Source: Pseudomonadota bacterium (GTDB taxonomy: Bacteria; Pseudomonadota; Alphaproteobacteria; Rhizobiales; Hyphomicrobiaceae). Taken from it: a stretch of 64,000 nucleotides of DNA. Below the pieces are notes generated by a model. The model was not told the origin of the DNA. It made no database searches and saw only the letters and a list, made by a program, of their open reading frames with translations. This document shows, piece by piece, positions 22,048 to 34,213 of the stretch. Where the stretch lies: NCBI GenBank assembly GCA_018242295.1, contig JAFECE010000001.1:124001-188000 (forward strand), read 5' to 3'. A program made the position numbers and the translations under genes. Each line of letters begins with the position of its first letter. The first letter of the stretch is position 1.

Positions 22048-22926
22048 TCAACCTCCGCCAAGGCGTTGGCGGATGTAGTCGAGCTGGTCGAAGTTGCCGT
22101 ACCGGATCGTGAGGGTGCCGGTTTCGCCCGAACCGCGCCGGACTTCGACCTTCAGGCCCAAAAGATCGGTCAGCTCTTTCTCGAAGGCCTTCGTGTCGGC
22201 ATCCTTGTCGCGCGCACGCCGGTTGCCGCCGGTCGGGCCCTCCTGGCCGAAGGTCTGCTGAACGAGAGCTTCGACGTCGCGGACGTTCAAGCTGTCGTCG
22301 ATAATCTTTTTCGCCAGCGATTCAGCGTCGGCGCGGCCGATCAGAGCGCGGGCGTGACCGGCCGTCAGCTGGCCCTGCTGGACGAGCGACTGGACGGGCG
22401 CGGGGAGCTTCAAAAGCCGGAGCGTATTGGCCACGTGGCTGCGGCTCTTGCCGATGATTTCGGAGAGCTGTTCCTGGCTATAATCGAAGCGCTCGACGAG
22501 CTCGCGATAGCCCGACGCTTCTTCGATGGCGTTCAAGTCCTGGCGCTGGACGTTCTCGATGATCGCGAGCTCGAGGACTTCGCGGTCGGTGAGTTCGCGG
22601 ATAATCACGGGGATGGTGTGCATCCCGGCCTTCTGCGCCGCGCGCCACCGGCGTTCGCCGGCGACGATCTCGTAGCCGCCCGACATTCCGTTCGGCCTGA
22701 CGACGATCGGCTGGACGAGACCCTTGGTGCGGATAGACTCCGCCAGCTCCGCGAGTTCATCGTCGCGGAAATCCTTGCGCGGATTGAGCGGGCTTGATTT
22801 GACCTCGGCGATCGAGACCATGCGCTGCTCGCCCTCGGGCGGAAGGCGATGTCCGAGAGGTGCCGGTTCTCCGATGAGAGAGGCAAGGCCACGGCCCAGG
22901 CGGCTCTTCGGCACCATCGAGTTCAT
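22048..22926 (-). CDS. parB: Chromosome-partitioning protein ParB
   Basis: 292-residue CTP-dependent DNA clamp that loads at parS and spreads over the origin region. Seen: an N-terminal LGRGLASLIGEP ParA-activating segment, the CTP-binding domain with NPRKDF, GLVQPIVVRP and YEIVAGERRWRAAQKAG, the helix-turn-helix with YSQEQLSEIIGKSRSHVANTLRLL that reads parS, TAGHARALIG, and the C-terminal dimerisation segment. Encoded 59 bp after parA. Its expected targets, TGTTTCACGTGAAACA-like sites, occur at six places between 25.2 and 31.1 kb of this window. Confidence 0.96.
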   Translation of the reverse strand: MNSMVPKSRLGRGLASLIGEPAPLGHRLPPEGEQRMVSIAEVKSSPLNPRKDFRDDELAELAESIRTKGLVQPIVVRPNGMSGGYEIVAGERRWRAAQKAGMHTIPVIIRELTDREVLELAIIENVQRQDLNAIEEASGYRELVERFDYSQEQLSEIIGKSRSHVANTLRLLKLPAPVQSLVQQGQLTAGHARALIGRADAESLAKKIIDDSLNVRDVEALVQQTFGQEGPTGGNRRARDKDADTKAFEKELTDLLGLKVEVRRGSGETGTLTIRYGNFDQLDYIRQRLGGG

Positions 22927-22985: not shown

Positions 22986-23831
22986 TTAGGCGGCCTTGTA
23001 TCGCCGTTCGCGCTCCATGATTTCGGTCGCAAGCCGGATATAGGCTTGGCTGCCTGGGCAGTCGTAATCGTAGAGAAGAATGGGCTTGCCGTGCGACGGC
23101 GCCTCGGCGATGCGCGTGTTGCGCGGAATAACGGTGTCGTAGACCTTATTCCCGAAGAAGGCGCGAACGTTGTCGGCGACTTCCCGCGACAGAGACGTGC
23201 GCGCGTCATGCATCGTGAGCACGACGCCTTGAATTTCGAGACGCGGATTGAGCGTCGCACGGATCTGCTCGATGGAATCCTTCAACTGCGAAATACCTTC
23301 GAGCGCGAAGAACTCGCACTGAACCGGCACCAGAACCGCATGCGCCGCAGACATCGCGTTGAGCGTCAGCAGATTGAGAGACGGCGGGCAGTCGATCAGC
23401 ACATACGTAAATTGCTGGTCCGCATCGCGGGCGCGCAGATGTCCGATCATTGCCGTGATCGCGTCGCGGAGCTTGAACGCCTTGTTTTGATCAGCCGCAA
23501 GCGCCGCGTCGATGCCGACGAGATCGCTGTTCGCCGGCACGATGAAGAGATTCGGAACCGCCGTTTTGAGGACGGTTTCAAGGATTGCAGCGTTTCCCGT
23601 CAAAACGTCGAACGTCGTCTTGAAGCGCTGCTCGATGTCGACGCCGAGTCCGGTCGAAGCGTTGCCCTGCGAATCGAGGTCGAGAATGAGAACCCGTTCA
23701 CCGACGGCCGCCAGCGCGGTGCCGAGATTGATCGCGGTCGTCGTCTTGCCGACGCCGCCTTTCTGATTGGAGACAGCAACGACACGCGGTCCCGCGTTCG
23801 CACCGCCCGTGCCTGAAACGTAGCCGGCCAC
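22986..23831 (-). CDS. parA: Chromosome-partitioning ATPase ParA
   Basis: 281-residue Walker-type ATPase that forms the DNA-bound gradient pulling ParB-parS complexes. Seen: deviant Walker A VSNQKGGVGKTTTAINLG (signature lysine at 24, catalytic at 30), DLDSQGNASTGLG, the Walker B YVLIDCPPSL and VVLTMHDARTSLS. It starts with GTG at 23831 behind GGAGGG, only 4 bases after the rsmG stop, so it is translated with rsmG and mnmG. The rsmG-parA-parB order is the usual one near bacterial origins. Confidence 0.97.
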   Translation of the reverse strand: MAGYVSGTGGANAGPRVVAVSNQKGGVGKTTTAINLGTALAAVGERVLILDLDSQGNASTGLGVDIEQRFKTTFDVLTGNAAILETVLKTAVPNLFIVPANSDLVGIDAALAADQNKAFKLRDAITAMIGHLRARDADQQFTYVLIDCPPSLNLLTLNAMSAAHAVLVPVQCEFFALEGISQLKDSIEQIRATLNPRLEIQGVVLTMHDARTSLSREVADNVRAFFGNKVYDTVIPRNTRIAEAPSHGKPILLYDYDCPGSQAYIRLATEIMERERRYKAA

Positions 23832-23835
23832 GGGT

Positions 23836-24492
23836 TTATCCCTCCGTCCTTGGGTTCAACGCTTTGAGCAACACAACGCGGCCGGCCTCTTCCGTAACGC
23901 TTGGAATCAGCTCAAAGGCAAACTGCCAATCGCGAGCTGCGTTCTCGAGTTCGGCCGAAACGTCACGACCCTTCAAGAACATGCCAAGCGTAGAAGACGC
24001 AAAATAAGGTGCCGCGATCTCGACCAGTCGCGAGAGTGGTGCAAGAGCGCGCGCAGTAACGCAGTCGGCCTTGCCTACCTTAGCCTGAGTCTCGGGATTT
24101 TCGATCCTCATGCCCAGAATGTCCACAGCAACGCGGGTTTCGCGGGCGACTTCGCGCATGAATGCGGCCTTTCGGCTGTCGCTCTCGACCAGTATGTGGC
24201 GCGTGCCGCCGGTTTCGGAAGCCATGATCGCCAGGACGAGACCGGGGAAGCCGGCACCGGAGCCAAGATCGAGCCAGGTTGGGGCGTTTTCCGGGCGGTA
24301 GCGCCAGAGCTGGGCGCTATCGGCAAAGTGGCGGTGCCAGATTTCGTCGAGGGTGCTCGGAGCGACGAGGTTGATGGTTTTCTGCCAGCGCTTCAGGAGC
24401 GCGGCGTATGTCTCCAGCTTTTCGCGAACTTCATTGGAAACGTCGAACCGGCGCTGAAACTCTTCCGGCGTGTCGATGCCTGACAACGCCAT
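23836..24492 (-). CDS. rsmG: 16S rRNA m7G527 methyltransferase
   Basis: 218-residue SAM-dependent enzyme methylating N7 of G527 in 16S rRNA. Seen: LLKRWQKTINLVAPSTLDEIWHRH split across the N-terminal helices, motif I as WLDLGSGAGFPGLVLA, LVESDSRKAAFM, and DCVTARALAPL, characteristic of RsmG (GidB). Its ATG overlaps the mnmG stop by one base (TAATG), and parA follows after 4 bases. Confidence 0.95.
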   Translation of the reverse strand: MALSGIDTPEEFQRRFDVSNEVREKLETYAALLKRWQKTINLVAPSTLDEIWHRHFADSAQLWRYRPENAPTWLDLGSGAGFPGLVLAIMASETGGTRHILVESDSRKAAFMREVARETRVAVDILGMRIENPETQAKVGKADCVTARALAPLSRLVEIAAPYFASSTLGMFLKGRDVSAELENAARDWQFAFELIPSVTEEAGRVVLLKALNPRTEG

Positions 24493-26447
24493 TAGGCGCT
24501 CTTGCGGTCGCGCTTGCCGCTCTTGGCCGCCTTGAGGCGGGCCAGCAGGGTCAGAAGCGCGGCGGGCGTCATGCCTTCGATGCGGCCGGCCTGAGCAATC
24601 GTCGAGGGGCGGTGGCGCGCCAGTTTCTGCCGGATCTCGGCCGAAAGGCTCGGAATGGCGGCGTAATCGAAGTCATTGGGGATGCGGACGGCCTCGTCCC
24701 GCTTCAGCTGATCGACATCTTCGTCCTGACGGCGGAGATAGGCGGCGTAGCGGGCGTCGACCTCCAGCTGGTCGGCGATCCGCGGCGCGATGTTGCCGAT
24801 TTCGGGCCAGACGGATTTCAGGCGGTCGAGCGAGATTTCGGGAAAAGCCAGCAGATCGAAGGCCGTACGGCGTCGGCCGTCACGATTGACGGTTAGGCCG
24901 TGGCGGGCTGCCTCGGTCGGCGTCAGCGAGAGCTGGTTCAGGAGATCCAGGCCCTCGGCGAGGGCTTTGGCCTTGGTCTCGAACTTCCGGCGGCGCGCGG
25001 GGCCGACGCAGCCGAGGGTGATGCCCTCGGGCGTCAGACGCTGGTCGGCGTTGTCGGCGCGGAGCTTCAGCCGGAATTCCGCCCGCGACGTGAACATCCG
25101 GTAGGGCTCCGAGACCCCCCGAGTAATGAGGTCATCGACCATCACGCCCAGATAGCCCGCCGTCCGCGAAATAGCGTACGTTTCACGTGAATCCTCGAAA
25201 ACTGCGGCTCCTGTTTCACGTGAATCCGTTTCACGTGAATCACTGGAGGTTGAATCGAGCGTCGTTTTGCTGGCGGTCAGAGCGGCGTTGATGCCAGCGA
25301 GAAGGCCTTGGGCACCGGCTTCCTCGTAGCCGGTGGTGCCGTTGATCTGGCCAGCCAGGAAGAGGCCGGGCAGGCGCTTGACTTCCAGGCCCGGGGTCAG
25401 TTCGCGCGGATCGACGTAGTCGTATTCGATGGCGTAGCCAGGCCGCTTGATCACGACATTGGCCAGCCCCGGCATGGTTTTCAGGAAGGCTTCCTGGACT
25501 TCGATCGGCAGGGATGTCGAGACGCCGTTCGGATAGATCGTGTCGTCGTCCAAGCCTTCAGGTTCGAGGAAAATCTGATGCGCCGCGCGGTCAGCGAATC
25601 GCACGACCTTGTCCTCGATCGACGGGCAATAGCGCGGGCCGACGCTTTCGATTTGGCCGGAATACATAGGAGAACGCGCAAGATTGGCGCGGATGATCTC
25701 GTGCGTCGCTTCGTTTGTGTAGGTGATCCCGCAGGCGATTTGCGGGGTCGTGACGGCTTCGGTCAGAAACGAGAATGGCACCGGATCGTCGTCGGCCTTC
25801 TGCATTTCGAGGCCCGACCAATCGATCGATTTGCCGTCGAGGCGCGCTGGCGTGCCCGTCTTCAGGCGGCCGAGTTTCAGACCGAGGCCGTAAAGGCGCT
25901 CGGACAGCCGGAGGGCGGGCGCTTCCCCGGCCCGGCCGGCAGGAATCTTCTGCTCGCCCATATGGATCAGGCCATTCAGGAACGTGCCGGTCGTCAGTAC
26001 GACGGCGCCGGCGCGCAGCTCGCGGCCATTGGCGGTGATGGCGCCCTGGACCCGGCCACCGATGACAATCAGGTCTTCGACCCCGCCTTCGATGACGTCG
26101 AGGTTTGGAATCGAAGCGATTTCGGCCTGCATTGCCTGGCGGTAGAGCTTGCGGTCGGCCTGGGTGCGGGGGCCGTGGACGGCGGGGCCTTTCGAGCGGT
26201 TCAGAAGCCGGAATTGGATGCCTGCTACGTCCGCGACGCGGCCCATTAGACCGTCCAGGGCATCGATTTCGCGGACCAGATGACCCTTTCCGAGGCCGCC
26301 AATGGCCGGATTGCACGACATTTCGCCGATCGTCGCGAAGGCATGGGTGACAAGTGCCGTCCGCGCACCCATGCGCGCCGCAGCCGCGGCTGCTTCGGTT
26401 CCGGCGTGGCCGCCGCCCACAACGATGACGTCATACGTACTGTTCAT
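24492..26447 (-). CDS. mnmG: tRNA uridine-34 5-carboxymethylaminomethyl enzyme MnmG, with coding parS insert
   Basis: 651-residue FAD-dependent partner of MnmE that modifies U34 of certain tRNAs. Seen: FAD motif [34 protein letters not shown] (split over residues ~43-65), [40 protein letters not shown]-type [11 protein letters not shown], and a complete C-terminal helical domain. It is longer than E. coli MnmG. The extra length falls at residues ~393-424, between [10 protein letters not shown] and [13 protein letters not shown], where DSRET occurs at 403-407, 408-412 and 419-423. Each DSRET is a parS-like DNA site read in frame. The insert is expected to be a surface loop; catalytic residues are untouched. 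Confidence 0.96.
25179..25194. other. parS-like site A (inside mnmG)
   Basis: CGTTTCACGTGAATCC matches the general parS sequence TGTTTCACGTGAAACA at 13 of 16 bases with an intact TTTCACGTGAA core. Encodes D419-T423 of MnmG on the minus strand. Confidence 0.75.
25212..25227. other. parS-like site B (inside mnmG)
   Basis: TGTTTCACGTGAATCC, 14 of 16 matches to parS; encodes D408-T412 of MnmG. Its centre is 33 bp from site A. Confidence 0.8.
25227..25242. other. parS-like site C (inside mnmG)
   Basis: CGTTTCACGTGAATCA, 14 of 16 matches to parS; encodes D403-T407. It shares base 25227 with site B, so the two centres are 15 bp apart. Confidence 0.8.
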
Positions 26448-26545
26448 GGCCAGGACCTAGCGCATCCGGGGGACGCGCAAAAGGCGGTATGTCGCCGGAC
26501 GTTGCCCACAGGAGTCTAAAAATGGGGGCTTGCGAATCCGGGAAT

Positions 26546-26561
26546 CATTTCACGTGAAACC
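26546..26561. other. parS-like site D (mnmE-mnmG gap)
   Basis: CATTTCACGTGAAACC, 13 of 16 matches with a full 12-bp palindromic core TTTCACGTGAAA, in the 122-bp gap between the mnmE stop and the mnmG start. Confidence 0.8.
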
Positions 26562-26569
26562 TTTTGGAC

Positions 26570-27883
26570 TCACTTGCCGATGCAGAATCGACTGAAAATT
26601 TGGTCAAGGACGTCCTCGACATCGATCCGGCCGGTGATCCGGCCCAGCGCATGAGCGGCGCGGCGCACGTCCTCTGCGCGAAGTTCGATCGGGTCCGGGG
26701 GGCCGTTAAGGAAGGCGCCGGTATCGTTAAGGGCATTTTCCAGGGCTTCCCGATGGCGGGCTCGGGTCAGCGCCGGTTCGGTCGCCAAGCCGACGGCTTC
26801 GCTGGCGCGCTTGGCGATCTCCGCGATGAGCTGATCGATGCCGGCGCCGGTCTTGGCAGAGACTGCGAGCCCGTCGAAGTGGGAATCAAGTGCAAGATCC
26901 TGTTTGGAACGGATTGCAAGACTTGTTTCACGTGAAAAATTAAGTGGCGGAATCGATTCAGGATTTTCGGCTAACCACAGCACCAGGTCGGCGTCGCGGG
27001 CGGCAGCGAGGCTGCGCCGGATGCCTTCGCGTTCGACGTCGCTCGATGCTTCGCGAATGCCTGCTGTGTCGGAGACGATGACGGCGAGTCCGGCAAGGTC
27101 AAGGCGAACCTCGATGACGTCGCGTGTGGTTCCGGCTTCGGCAGAAACGATTGCTGCGTCACGGCGGGCGAGAGCATTCAGCAGGCTGGACTTCCCGGCA
27201 TTCGGAGGCCCTAGAAGCGCGACCCGGAATCCTTCACGAAGAATTTCGCCGCGATGGCCGTCATCCAGATGCGAGGCGATTTCCTTTTGCAATATTTCCA
27301 CGCGCTTTCGCGCTTCGTTGAAGGCCGACACCGATACGTCGCCTTCGTCGGAAAAGTCGATTGCGGCTTCGACCAGCGCGGCGATCTCGATCAGACGGGT
27401 TCGCCAGCCGTCATAGAGCTTCGAGAGAGAGCCGGCCGTCTGGGCGAGAGCCTGGCGGCGCTGGGCTTCGGTTTCGGCTTCGATGAGGTCGGCGAGGCCC
27501 TCTATTTCGGCCAGGTCGAGCTTGCCGTTCTCGAATGCACGACGGGCGAATTCGCCGGGCTGCGCTAAGCGGCATCCAGCGATCTCTCCCAGCGCCGAGA
27601 GCAAGGCGGCGATGACGGCGCGGCTGCCGTGAACCTGGAACTCGACGATATCTTCGCCTGTTTCGGTTTTTGGCGCCGCGAACCAGATAACTACGGCCCT
27701 GTCGAGCACGTCGCCGGTCCTTGGATGCTTAATGGTGCGGAAGGCTGCGAAGCGTGGTTCCGGCAGTGGTCCCGTCATCATTTCGAGCGTCGCCCGGGCG
27801 GCGGGACCCGAAACGCGAATAACCGCGACACCCGCACGTCCCGGAGCGCTCGAAAGCGCGAAGATCGTTGAAGCCTCTTTCAT
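26570..27883 (-). CDS. mnmE: tRNA modification GTPase MnmE
   Basis: 437-residue GTPase working with MnmG on U34 of tRNA. Seen: the N-terminal formyl-THF-binding domain starting [40 protein letters not shown]1 loop [12 protein letters not shown] (225-235), GTTRDVIE (G2), DTAG at 272-275 (G3), and the C-terminal FCIGK with the essential cysteine. The G4 motif, normally NKxD, reads Ser326-Lys-Gln-Asp, a mild oddity. Just before it, FSRET (316-320) is encoded by a near-perfect parS site. Followed by mnmG after 122 bp. Confidence 0.96.
26924..26939. other. parS-like site E (inside mnmE)
   Basis: TGTTTCACGTGAAAAA matches TGTTTCACGTGAAACA at 15 of 16 bases, the best match in the window. It encodes F316-T320 of MnmE. 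Confidence 0.85.
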
Positions 27884-27957
27884 CCGCTTCGCGTACTCGT
27901 AGACGGCGACGACCGCAACTCGATCACGACATCCCTCCTAACACCGACAGGTGCGAA

Positions 27958-29987
<2,030 letters not shown>

Positions 29988-29988
<1 letters not shown>

Positions 29989-31052
29989 TGACTCTTTACC
30001 GCGTTGAAACGTCCCAGAGTTCAAACGCTTGGCTGAAACAGCCTCTGAACGATATAGAGGTCGGGTTAGAAAGGCCGCGCCGCATGAGATATCTCCGGGA
30101 AGTCGTCCGATACGGCTACGCCCCCTTTATGATGTTCGGGTTGACCTTCGCCGCCTACTGGGTCGTGAGCGAACTGGTCGTCGCCCAAGGAAACCACTGG
30201 GCTTATCTCTGGCTGCTGCCGTTGCTGGCTACCGCCTATGCAACTTCGTTCGCCGCCGAGAAGATTGCGCCGTTTTTTGACGACTGGAACGACCATCAGA
30301 GTCATGGCGACATGGGCGCGAACACCGCGCACATAGCGGCCTACGAAATATCGGCGATGAATGGCGTCTTCCTGATTCCGGTCATCTGCTGGCTGTTTCC
30401 GTTCCAGGGCATTTGGCCGACGCACTGGCCGATGTGGACGCAGGTGCTGATCGCGTTCGTCGCTGCCGACTTCGCTTTCATGATGATGCATTACCTCAGT
30501 CACCGATATGCGCCGCTCTGGAGGCTGCATGCGGTCCATCACGGTGTCGGCCGGCTCTATGGCTACAACGGCGTCATTCGACACCCCATCCATCAGATCA
30601 TCGATATGATCGTCGGCAACATGCCGCTCGTGATCATCGGCATGCCTGTGCCGGTTGCTGTCGTGCTCGGTTTCCTGATCTCGGTGACGCTGATCGTGCA
30701 GCACTCGAATGTCGATGCGCGGCTTGGACCGCTGCAGAAACACCTGTCGATCGGCCGGCTGCATCACATGCACCACGTCAACTGGGGCACGGAAGGAGAC
30801 TGCAATTTCGGTCTGCTGCTGACGATCTGGGACAAGATGCTCGGCACGTTCAGCGACAAGCCGAAACGTGAGATCACGTCCAAGGATATGGGCGTCGACG
30901 AGCTGCCGAATTTCCCGAAGGGCTATGTCGAGCAGCTGCTGCTGCCATTCTACTATGAGCCCGGCAAGGGCGAGCCCGATCGCTATAAGAAACTCGCCGC
31001 CAAGACGCCGGCGCAGGAAGCGCGCGAGCAGATCATTCACGCGGCTGAGTAG
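29988..31052 (+). CDS. Sterol desaturase / fatty-acid hydroxylase family protein
   Basis: 354-residue integral membrane di-iron oxygenase. Several membrane segments are visible (about residues 45-65, 70-90, 125-145, 150-170, 205-235). The histidine boxes that hold two irons are present: HYLSHR, HAVHHG and HHMHHVNWG. Members hydroxylate or desaturate sterols, hopanoids, carotenoids or fatty acids; the substrate cannot be assigned. The ATG at 29988 overlaps the preceding stop by one base; a second ATG at 30084 is possible and would remove a 32-residue soluble leader. Ends just before a strong terminator. Confidence 0.85.
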
Positions 31053-31080: not shown

Positions 31081-31106
31081 GGCCGCTCGATTGGGCGGCC
31101 TTTTTC
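31081..31106. terminator. Bidirectional intrinsic terminator
   Basis: Stem GGCCGC / GCGGCC preceded by AAAAAA and followed by TTTTTC, between the convergent desaturase-family gene and rho. The plus-strand T-run is also the left half of parS-like site F. Confidence 0.85.
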
Positions 31107-31116
31107 ACGTGAATCA
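31101..31116. other. parS-like site F
   Basis: TTTTTCACGTGAATCA, 14 of 16 matches to parS, overlapping the terminator T-run and lying 13 bp beyond the rho stop. It is the parS-like site nearest the candidate origin (~3.1 kb). Confidence 0.75.
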
Positions 31117-31128
31117 CTTGTAGATACT

Positions 31129-32394
31129 TTACGTGTTCATCGACTGGAAGAACTCGCCGTTGGTCTTGGTCGAGCGCAGCTTGTCGATGAGGAACTCGAT
31201 GCCGTCCATGGTGCCCATCGGATTGAGGATGCGGCGTAGGACATAGACCTTCTTGAGCTGATCCTTCGGAACCAGCAGATCTTCCTTACGCGTGCCCGAG
31301 CGCGAGACGTCGATCGCCGGGAAGACGCGCTTGTCGGAGACCTTGCGGTCGAGAATGATTTCCGAGTTGCCTGTGCCCTTGAACTCTTCGAAGATCACTT
31401 CGTCCATGCGCGAGCCGGTATCGATGAGGGCCGTCGCGATGATCGTCAGCGAGCCGCCCTCTTCGATGTTGCGGGCCGCACCGAAGAAGCGCTTCGGGCG
31501 CTGCAGGGCGTTCGAGTCGACGCCGCCGGTCAGAACCTTGCCGGAAGACGGAACAACAGTGTTGTAGGCACGACCTAGACGCGTGATCGAGTCGAGCAGG
31601 ATGACAACGTCCCGCTTATGCTCAACAAGGCGCTTAGCCTTCTCGATGACCATCTCCGACACTTGAACATGCCGCGACGGCGGCTCGTCGAATGTCGAGG
31701 AGATGACCTCGCCTTTGACGTTCCTCTGCATGTCGGTAACTTCTTCCGGCCGCTCGTCGATCAGCAACACGATCAGATAGCATTCGGGATGATTGGCTGT
31801 GATCGAGTGGGCAATGTTCTGGAGAAGAACCGTCTTGCCGGTGCGCGGCGGGGCGACGATCAGGGCGCGCTGGCCTTTGCCGAGCGGCGAGACGATGTCG
31901 ATCACGCGGGACGACAGGTCCTTGATGGTCGGGTCTTCTATTTCGAGTTTCAGCCATTGCGTCGGATAAAGCGGCGTCAGGTTGTCGAAGTGGCTCTTGT
32001 GCTTAGCCTTCTCGGGGTCTTCGAAGTTGATGTTCGAGACTTTGAGAAGGGCGAAGTAGCGTTCGCCGTCTTTAGGCGAGCGGATCTGGCCTTCAACGGT
32101 ATCGCCGGTGCGGAGGGCAAAGCGGCGAATCTGCGAGGGCGAGACATAGATGTCATCGGGGCCGGGCAGATAGTTGGCGTCTGGCGACCTTAAAAAGCCG
32201 AAGCCGTCCTGCAGGACTTCAACGACACCGGTCGCGGTAATTTCGGTTTCTTGGGTCGCGAGCTGCTTCAGCGTTGCGAACATCAATTCCTGCTTACGCA
32301 GGGTCGAGGCGTTCTCGACACCGGCCTCTTCGGCAAAGGTGACGAGCTCGGCGGGGGATTTCCGCTTCAAATCCTCGAGCTTCATTTGCTTCAT
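31129..32394 (-). CDS. rho: Transcription termination factor Rho
   Basis: 421-residue hexameric RNA helicase that ends transcription at C-rich unstructured RNA. Seen: the N-terminal helix bundle [15 protein letters not shown], cold-shock-like RNA-binding domain with [22 protein letters not shown], Walker [13 protein letters not shown], Walker [17 protein letters not shown], the R-loop GTGNSEI and the Q-loop. Start taken at the ATG at 32394, giving the usual length; a frame to 32466 has an unconserved leader. rho-hemJ-hemE beside the origin is conserved in alphaproteobacteria. Confidence 0.97.
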
Positions 32395-32596
32395 TGAAAA
32401 AGAACTCCACGGAGCGCCGCATCTGAGCGGCATCGGGTGGTGAGGTGGGATGAATGAGCCTGGCATGACGGCGACAAGGCGGGCGCCTCGTCATGAACCG
32501 GCGGGCGTTGACGCATCAAAACGTCGAAACGTGCCGTCTGCCAAAATCCTATGAGGACTGTTTTTCCATAGCAGATCGGCGTGGATCTGGAAAGTC

Positions 32597-33136
32597 TCAA
32601 AATGGCTTTACAATCACAAGGATGACAATGCCGATCATCAGCACTGCCGGGACCTCATTGATAATCCGCCAGTGCCGTGCGGGTTTCGTGTTGCGGTCTT
32701 CACGAAAGGCCCGGGCCGATGCTGAAAGGTAGCCATGCAACCCGGAAAGGAGCAGGACAAGCGTAATTTTGGCGTGAAACCAAGGCGCGGTCCAAAAGTG
32801 GCTGGTGGTCGCGAGCCATAGGCCGAGCACCCAGGCGATGATCATCGAGGGCGTAGCGATGATGTTCAAAAGCCGGGCTTCCATCAGCTTGAAGGTTTCG
32901 GACTGGGCCGAGCCGACCGGCGCTTCGGCGTGATAGACGAAAAGTCGCGGGAGATAGAGCATGGTGGCCATCCACGCGATGACCGCGATGACGTGGAAAG
33001 CTTTGAGCCAGAGATAGGCGTCGCCAGGGACGATCAAGACGAACGCCGCGGCCAGGATAGCTGTTACCGCCAGCGCGAAGGCGGCGCGGCGTCCGGGGGA
33101 GGCGGCAAGAGACGAGGCAGAAGGCGCGTCTGACAT
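32597..33136 (-). CDS. hemJ: Protoporphyrinogen IX oxidase HemJ
   Basis: 179-residue membrane protein that oxidises protoporphyrinogen IX to protoporphyrin IX in haem synthesis. Four hydrophobic segments are evident (about 20-37, 45-62, 92-110, 120-140, with a last one at 163-178). Seen: LKAFHVIAVIAWMATMLYLPRLFVYH, split here by its conserved histidine and arginine, and KPARHWRIINEVPA near the end. It begins 3 bases after the hemE stop, so hemE and hemJ are surely co-translated; this supports a haem role. Confidence 0.93.
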   Translation of the reverse strand: MSDAPSASSLAASPGRRAAFALAVTAILAAAFVLIVPGDAYLWLKAFHVIAVIAWMATMLYLPRLFVYHAEAPVGSAQSETFKLMEARLLNIIATPSMIIAWVLGLWLATTSHFWTAPWFHAKITLVLLLSGLHGYLSASARAFREDRNTKPARHWRIINEVPAVLMIGIVILVIVKPF

Positions 33137-33139
33137 TCT

Positions 33140-34213
33140 CTAGTTTCCCGTTTTGCGGATCCTATGGACAAGCCGGGCAACGTTCTCGGGCGGCGTTTCG
33201 GGAACGATGCCATGACCGAGGTTGAATACGAACGGCAAGCCCGCCATTGCCTGGCAGATGGCGTCGGCCCGGGCGTCGAGCGCCTCGCCGCCGGTGACGA
33301 GGAGAAGCGGGTCGAGATTGCCCTGCACGACTTTGCCGGTTTTGGCGATCGCCTGCATGACGCTCAACGGGCAGGATGTATCGCAGCTCACGCCATCGAC
33401 GTTTGTGCCATCGATGTATTTCTGCAGAAGAGCGGCGGCGCCGCGCGGAAAGCCTATGATGGGAACTTGCGGATGGCGTCGCCGGATTTCGGCGACGATG
33501 CGCGCCGTTGGTGCGATGACCCAGCGCTCGAATTCGTCTTCGGCGAGACTACCCGCCCAGCTGTCGAAAATCTGCAGCGCGTTGGCGCCAGCGTCCACCT
33601 GGCCCGAAAGGTAGACGATGGAGGCCTCGGTCAGCAGGCCGATGAGTTCGGAAAAACCTTGACGATCGCGATAAGCCCAGCTGCGCGCTGCGGCCTGATC
33701 GCTCGATCCCCGGCCTTCGGCCATGTACGTCGCAACGGTCCAAGGTGCCCCACAAAATCCAATCAAAGCCGTTTCGCGCGGCAGCTCTTTGCTCAGCAGC
33801 GCGACCGTTTCGCAAACTTTCGCGAACTTGTAGTGGGTGTTCGATAGGTCGAGTCGGTGAAGGTCGGCAACCGTTTTTACGGGATCGAGACGGGGGCCTT
33901 CACCTTCGGCAAAACGGACGTTTTGGCCGAGCGCATCGGGAACGACGAGGATGTCGGAAAACAGGATCGCGGCGTCGAAGCCGTAGCGCCTGATCGGCTG
34001 CAGCGTCACTTCGGCAGCGAGCTTCGGCGCGTAGCAGAGGTCGAGGAAGCTTCCGGCGTCGGCCCGGGTTTTGCGATATTCCGGCAGATAGCGGCCGGCC
34101 TGGCGCATCAGCCATACGGGCGGGGGCTGAACCGTATTGTCCGAAAACGGTGCCAGGAAGTGCTTTGTGGGCGATTTGGCGTTCAGGTCACGCAACGGAG
34201 TTCTTTCCTTCAC
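33140..34213 (-). CDS. hemE: Uroporphyrinogen decarboxylase
   Basis: 357-residue enzyme converting uroporphyrinogen III to coproporphyrinogen III. Seen: [17 protein letters not shown] with the substrate-binding arginines, [14 protein letters not shown] with the catalytic aspartate, [21 protein letters not shown] and [16 protein letters not shown]. It appears to start with GTG at 34213, without a strong ribosome site, right beside an AT-rich stretch. hemE next to the chromosomal origin is known from Caulobacter and Rickettsia. Confidence 0.95.

Follow-up and report, generated by a model that had tools for sequence, protein, structure and literature searches.

An in-frame array of parS-like palindromes in mnmG, restricted to one clade of a Hyphomicrobiaceae genus

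Background

That parS sites can lie inside genes is already known, and parS sites were reportedly surveyed by Livny et al. in 2007. Repeats of another kind are known to enter genes as well: the Rickettsia palindromic elements are scattered palindromic repeats that are inserted in frame and accepted as extra peptide. Among centromere systems, the ParABS system of Caulobacter crescentus is like the locus described below in its origin-near sites, its one conserved GTGAAA arm and its essential or high-cost host genes (PMC5815017). Pseudomonas aeruginosa is alike in that nine of its ten parS are predicted within coding sequences, and in that binding is favoured when one arm and the CACGTG core are intact (PMC4368675). 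For the repABC replicons of Rhodobacterales, positive selection of parS in coding sequences has been proposed, which is again a point of likeness (PMC9040568).

Here we analyze a stretch of 64,000 nucleotides from a member of the Hyphomicrobiaceae (contig JAFECE010000001.1, positions 124,001 to 188,000; hereafter the window), in which mnmG contains three parS-like palindromes. Based on sequence comparisons, we consider it about 85% probable that these palindromes are chromosomal parS sites, carried by a clade-specific insertion in which they multiplied and were frozen by ParB loading, while an older site in rsmG decayed.

Results and Discussion

Three parS-like sites within mnmG

The host gene mnmG (gidA; 24492..26447, minus strand) encodes the tRNA uridine-5-carboxymethylaminomethyl(34) synthesis enzyme of 651 aa. 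Its identity is confirmed by the profile search (TIGR00136, 813 bits against a cutoff of 524.85), and the conserved blocks GGGHAG and GTTGYEEA are present despite the insertion. A scan of the window located three exact TTTCACGTGAA cores, at 25181-25191, 25214-25224 and 25229-25239. On the coding strand of mnmG they correspond to three copies of the parS-like 14-mer GATTCACGTGAAAC, all in frame, with the codons GAT TCA CGT GAA AC(G/A) giving Asp-Ser-Arg-Glu-Thr (DSRET) in each module. The full sites, which like all parS-like sites below are given without a strand, are site A (25179..25194, coding strand GGATTCACGTGAAACG; invariant in 10 genomes), site B (25212..25227, GGATTCACGTGAAACA) and site C (25227..25242, TGATTCACGTGAAACG), with the centres of B and C 15 bp apart. 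A preliminary description of this DNA had named three in-frame cores read as DSRET, the second and third of them abutting, and both the codons and the coordinates agree with it.

All three are 16-bp palindromes close to TGTTTCACGTGAAACA, with three mismatches in A and two each in B and C; the CACGTG core is intact and the GTGAAAC arm is perfect across its 7 bases. Six places in the window come within three mismatches of TGTTTCACGTGAAACA, against 0.16 expected from shuffles. The looser scan with the 11-mer at up to two mismatches is less striking (25 matches against 14.5 expected, a number reached by 2 of 100 shuffles). The genome as a whole (4.05 Mb) has 11 places with at most three mismatches, versus 6 for a reversed-pattern control; CACGTG is kept in 7 of the 11, of which 6 lie within 6 kb at the mnmG locus and one about 99 kb away. 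The sites are thus clustered near parAB and the origin, as judged by the neighbours rho and hemE, and rare elsewhere.

The cluster extends beyond mnmG, to places that the preliminary description does not list. One parS-like site (26546..26561) lies between mnmE and mnmG and overlaps a 19-nt invariant run (26542-26560), another (26924..26939; TGTTTCACGTGAAAAA) lies inside mnmE (26570..27883, minus strand; NF003661, 578 bits), where it is read FSRET and has one mismatch to the consensus, and a third (31101..31116) separates the 3' ends of ORF 29988-31052 and rho (31129..32466, minus strand; TIGR00767). The genes rho and hemE (33140..34213, minus strand; TIGR01464), the latter a marker of the alphaproteobacterial origin, are 6-9 kb away. 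We take the gap between them (32467-33139 in the window) to be the place where the replication origin is expected in alphaproteobacteria. In H. neptunium hemE lies about 7 kb from parAB and has been used as an origin marker (PMC6650430).

A weaker site, CTTTCCACGTGAATCA (28326..28341), has four mismatches and is read in frame as FPRES in ORF 27868-29988, presumably a thioredoxin-like DUF255 protein, whose profile match is weak and below the cutoff. Its codons CCA CGT GAA TCA, which follow the motif GGTYFP and give RES, are identical in all 10 genomes of the clade defined below. Among nine other genus members with GGTYFP, six have Lys at this place and three have PRE, one of the three (G008) with CCA CGT GAA. 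It is likely from this distribution that the site is a further coding parS, completed by substitution in a process that started before the clade arose.

The presumed binding partner

The centromere proteins are encoded on the minus strand by parB (22048..22926; TIGR00180, 199 bits against a cutoff of 58) and parA (22986..23831). The latter is named by its position and its ParA/MinD-type matches, none of the 25 listed exceeding its own cutoff. The closest solved chain to ParB is 6t1f (E 2e-67), whose source we take to be Caulobacter, and the GKSRSHVANT segment is identical in the two. According to a hand count on the 6t1f alignment, with a numbering offset of ten, the equivalents of R173, T179, A184 and G201 are R, T, K and G. 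Among parS-specific ParB variants R173 never changes and position 184 accepts any residue (PMC7383237), so that the residue mapping is that of a cognate ParB with parS-specific recognition residues.

The 2-3 mismatches of the window sites count against easy binding by ParB, because a two-base change in one arm (TGCCTCAC) abolished the binding of H. neptunium ParB in a gel shift (PMC6650430). In favour of binding, P. aeruginosa ParB prefers a site with one intact arm and two changes in the other to a site altered in both arms, with the CACGTG core also of importance (PMC4368675), and the T3A arm of the window sites is common as a natural variant. From the residues and the sites together we infer that the neighbouring ParB would bind the mnmG palindromes. 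The preliminary description had placed them in a centromere setting on the strength of parAB nearby; the ParB matches, the gene order and the other parS-like sites all fit a centromere.

A loop insertion restricted to one clade

The modules lie in a loop insertion of MnmG (25185..25262, minus strand; approximately residues 396-421, with coordinates counted by hand on alignment A1). This loop of about 25-26 extra residues comes after the helix that follows GTTGYEEA and before the next block of conservation. It is absent from all 27 other alphaproteobacterial MnmG proteins in alignment A1, which represent 27 of our 80 named loci, and the best solved MnmG chain has about 3 residues where the window protein has residues 392-420. 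The open frame is longer than usual, 654 in the window and 628 in G008 and G017. In a structure model computed from alignment A1 the mean pLDDT is 84 and residues 397-421 fall below 50, which is weak evidence of disorder, since the loop is present in the window row alone and low confidence is to be expected there.

The loop was found in 10 of 21 comparable genus genomes, the other 11 having neither the loop nor the mnmG sites (G015, with no MnmG match at the cutoff used, and G022, with no query gene matched on its fetched contig, were left out). This bears out the earlier claim that an unusually long MnmG carries the peptide between conserved blocks, and answers the alignment check proposed with it. 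When five proteins are concatenated and the loop is excluded, the resulting tree unites the 10 loop genomes in one clade with support 1.0. Their sister group comprises G004, G008 and G017, none of which has the loop (support of the joint clade 0.90). Six species of the clade have three modules and four have two. In 22 genus genomes the 14-mer GATTCACGTGAAAC occurs at 34 places, 26 in mnmG of the clade and 8 in mnmE or the mnmE-mnmG gap of members outside it, and at none beyond these; in G008, G017, G019 and G009 it sits between genes. Clade members have 5-6 parS-like sites per fetched stretch and other genomes 1-4, counts that come from stretches of unequal length, some without mnmE. Elsewhere in the family, G023 (L051 and other contigs) has unusually many parS: 47 matches of TTTCACGTGAA, or about 24 sites, are spread over many contigs, several of them paired 34 bp apart.

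Constraint acts on the DNA of the modules

The 14-mer is letter-identical in every intact DSRET module of the 10 loop genomes, and other codons drift. In the codon alignment of mnmG from the 10 species only two nucleotide-invariant runs of at least 11 exist, each of 14 nt, and both are modules. The D, S, R and E codons of the two shared modules are invariant (8 of 8), compared with 63 of 454 amino-acid-invariant columns outside the loop, where the codon-invariant fractions are 7/27 for D, 1/16 for S, 2/41 for R and 4/26 for E. The difference between modules and outside columns has a probability of 1.5e-7 with smoothing, an indicative value since the columns were picked beforehand. The third base of Thr, which is parS position 16 and lies beyond the 14-mer, varies across the clade. 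Under local codon use, calculated with the loop codons included, the chance of this DSRE spelling is 0.003. Which of B and C is the site shared with subclade B depends on the alignment: the shared upstream module pairs with B in the DNA alignment but with C in the codon alignment.

An alignment of the 10.5-kb locus contains 16 invariant runs of at least 12 nt, of which 5 have CACGTG and 11 are not parS-like, most of the latter falling in other coding stretches. The CACGTG sites of mnmE and of the mnmE-mnmG gap are likewise invariant in the clade. Synonymous positions are frozen in the modules and drift elsewhere, and therefore selection acts on the DNA and not on the peptide. DSRET kept without CACGTG would have spoken against the preliminary description; we found the opposite, with the 14-mer intact in all 10 loop genomes.

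Two of the runs that are not parS-like may be mentioned separately. Both are invariant in the 10 clade genomes, one at 23903-23922 (20 nt, 3' part of rsmG) and the other at 30613-30631 (19 nt, ORF 29988-31052).

parS in genes of relatives and the loss of the rsmG site

A parS-like site falls within the rsmG match in 25 of 29 non-clade relatives and in 54 of the 76 named loci with rsmG (the named loci are 80 of at least 589, from which records very close to the window may be missing). It is mostly close to the 5' end and read VSRET or ISRET. A parS in a gene is thus not in itself unusual, because most of the alphaproteobacteria examined have one in rsmG. In the window, rsmG (gidB; 23836..24492, minus strand) has FDVSNEV where relatives have their 5'-end parS. 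The full TTTCACGTGAAAC is found in none of the 10 clade genomes and CACGTG in 2 of them, while 10 of 11 other genus members have CACGTG. Judged from these alignments, the clade has lost the rsmG 5'-end parS, which is retained by most of the alphaproteobacteria examined. Given how common that site is, SRET in alphaproteobacterial RsmG may be the mark of a centromere and not a motif of the protein.

In-gene sites use the frame VSRET in 140 cases (37 + 67 + 36), FHVK in 9 and a stop-containing frame in one, which may be an indel artefact of the BLAST-bounded frame. The T3A arm, which the window sites have, ranks second among the single-mismatch variants, with 16 cases among 263 sites at 109 non-clade loci.

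Sites in mnmG occur elsewhere too, in frame and 399-456 nt from the 3' end of the match, at 8 of the 80 named loci (L079, L083, L087, L088, L097, L102, L109 and L123, several of them Caulobacterales). Their place differs from that in the window and two frames are used, VSRET and FHVK. Five of these eight proteins were included in alignment A1, and none of the five has a comparable insertion.

The 15-bp register and the growth of the array

In the four species of subclade B the loop is laid out at in-frame offsets 24/39/54/69 as a DSYTT-like unit, DSRET, a variable unit and DSRET. The unit before the first intact module (GATTCATATACAAC) has 3-4 mismatches out of 14 in all four species, against no background in-frame position among 6057 at up to 4 mismatches. 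The variable unit between the modules has 5-6 mismatches in two species and more than 6 in the other two; it is weak evidence, since 35 of 6057 background positions reach 6 mismatches or fewer. Subclade A has two adjoining intact units, preceded by one of which only GATTCA is left. These two codons are invariant in all 10 clade genomes. In G019 two modules lie 15 bp apart in an intergenic region.

In-frame tandem duplication may have enlarged the array, as the 15-bp (five-codon) register and the presence of one or more decayed copies in four species suggest, and we infer a 15-bp unit as the element that was copied. The loop could instead have arisen by one insertion followed by divergence, for which speak the weak variable unit of subclade B and the first unit of subclade A, reduced to GATTCA.

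A more ambitious version of the tandem reading, for which we see about even odds, is that the centromere expanded as a protein-coding minisatellite, with duplication of the 15-bp unit, a disordered peptide dictated by ParB, decay of the rsmG site and completion of the site in ORF 27868-29988. If it is true, the centromere changed place and became larger through the rewriting of several proteins.

Other readings of the palindromes

It is improbable that the palindromes serve another DNA-binding regulator, or act as RNA structure in the message of mnmG. In favour of such readings, the palindrome CACGTG is a generic one, the gene cluster that holds the sites is on one strand, and the predicted fold pairs B and C as a 10-bp hairpin. 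However, the sites cluster next to parAB, and their flanks match parS specifically: at 109 loci, zero mismatches flank CACGTG in 139 of 494 cases and the control GTGCAC in 0 of 211. As to RNA structure, which we rejected despite the B-C pairing, the 126-nt RNA has no excess stability over shuffles (z 0.23; in 110 of 200 shuffles the stability was equal or higher).

Slimmer still is the chance that the modules are a tandem repeat without function, evolving neutrally and homogenized by recent slippage or gene conversion. Such a repeat would account for the 15-bp register, the abutting copies and the copy number that differs between subclades, but the 14-mers are identical in 10 species whose choice of codon for a shared amino acid differs by 21-48% (six pairs computed), the decayed copy shows the drift that follows when selection is absent, and CACGTG in mnmE and in the mnmE-mnmG gap, outside the array, is equally invariant.

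Finally, DSRET is very unlikely to be a protein motif selected for MnmG function (e.g. contact with MnmE or tRNA) with an incidental palindrome: although every intact module encodes the same peptide and mnmE also has FSRET, the freezing of synonymous positions within the modules and not around them disfavours this reading, as do the very low model confidence of the loop, the intergenic 14-mers of G008, G017, G019 and G009, and the ISRET that persists in rsmG of G018 with a broken palindrome (CGC), next to ISREV in G020.

A possible history of the array

Under the parS reading, the sites from mnmG to rho would form an origin-proximal cluster bound by the neighbouring ParB. A parS unit would have appeared in a permissive surface loop of MnmG in the ancestor of the 10-species clade, and multiplied there, probably by tandem duplication of the 15-bp unit. 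The array could be tolerated as extra peptide, because a unit of 15 bp adds five codons and the palindrome can be read through in one frame (x-Ser-Arg-Glu-Thr). Selection for ParB loading would then have frozen the 14-mers, while drift went on in the rest of the loop. In rsmG the older parS close to the 5' end would have been released and decayed, its function presumably being taken over by the mnmG array. The proposal of the preliminary description that mnmG accepted a repeated centromere module as harmless peptide is backed in this respect by the clade-restricted loop and the DNA-level constraint.

The locus suggests that a centromere can extend into a conserved gene and leave it intact. The states before and after can both be seen: the sister species lack the array, the clade has units that are intact and units that have decayed, and its older site is lost. 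A further point is that the protein insertion is here best explained by a function at the DNA level, which advises caution against reading loops of MnmG, RsmG or MnmE as features of the protein only.

Comparison with known systems

Our literature search, which covered few subscription papers and saw sources in part, returned no parS array that brings its own peptide insertion; with the same thin subscription coverage it returned nothing on parS with rsmG and mnmG or on synonymous constraint. As far as the searched literature goes, it is this combination that is new. Compared with the Rickettsia palindromic elements, which are scattered, the 14-mer of the window occurs at one locus only in 22 genus genomes. 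A tandem array or peptide insertion is not described in the consulted portions of the P. aeruginosa report (PMC4368675). The Rhodobacterales repABC replicons differ in using a plasmid RepB, and a tandem in-frame insertion in a housekeeping gene is not described in the corresponding excerpts (PMC9040568). To the pattern seen in Caulobacter crescentus (PMC5815017), the clade of the window adds a clade-specific peptide insertion with 2-3 sites in approximately 45-80 bp.
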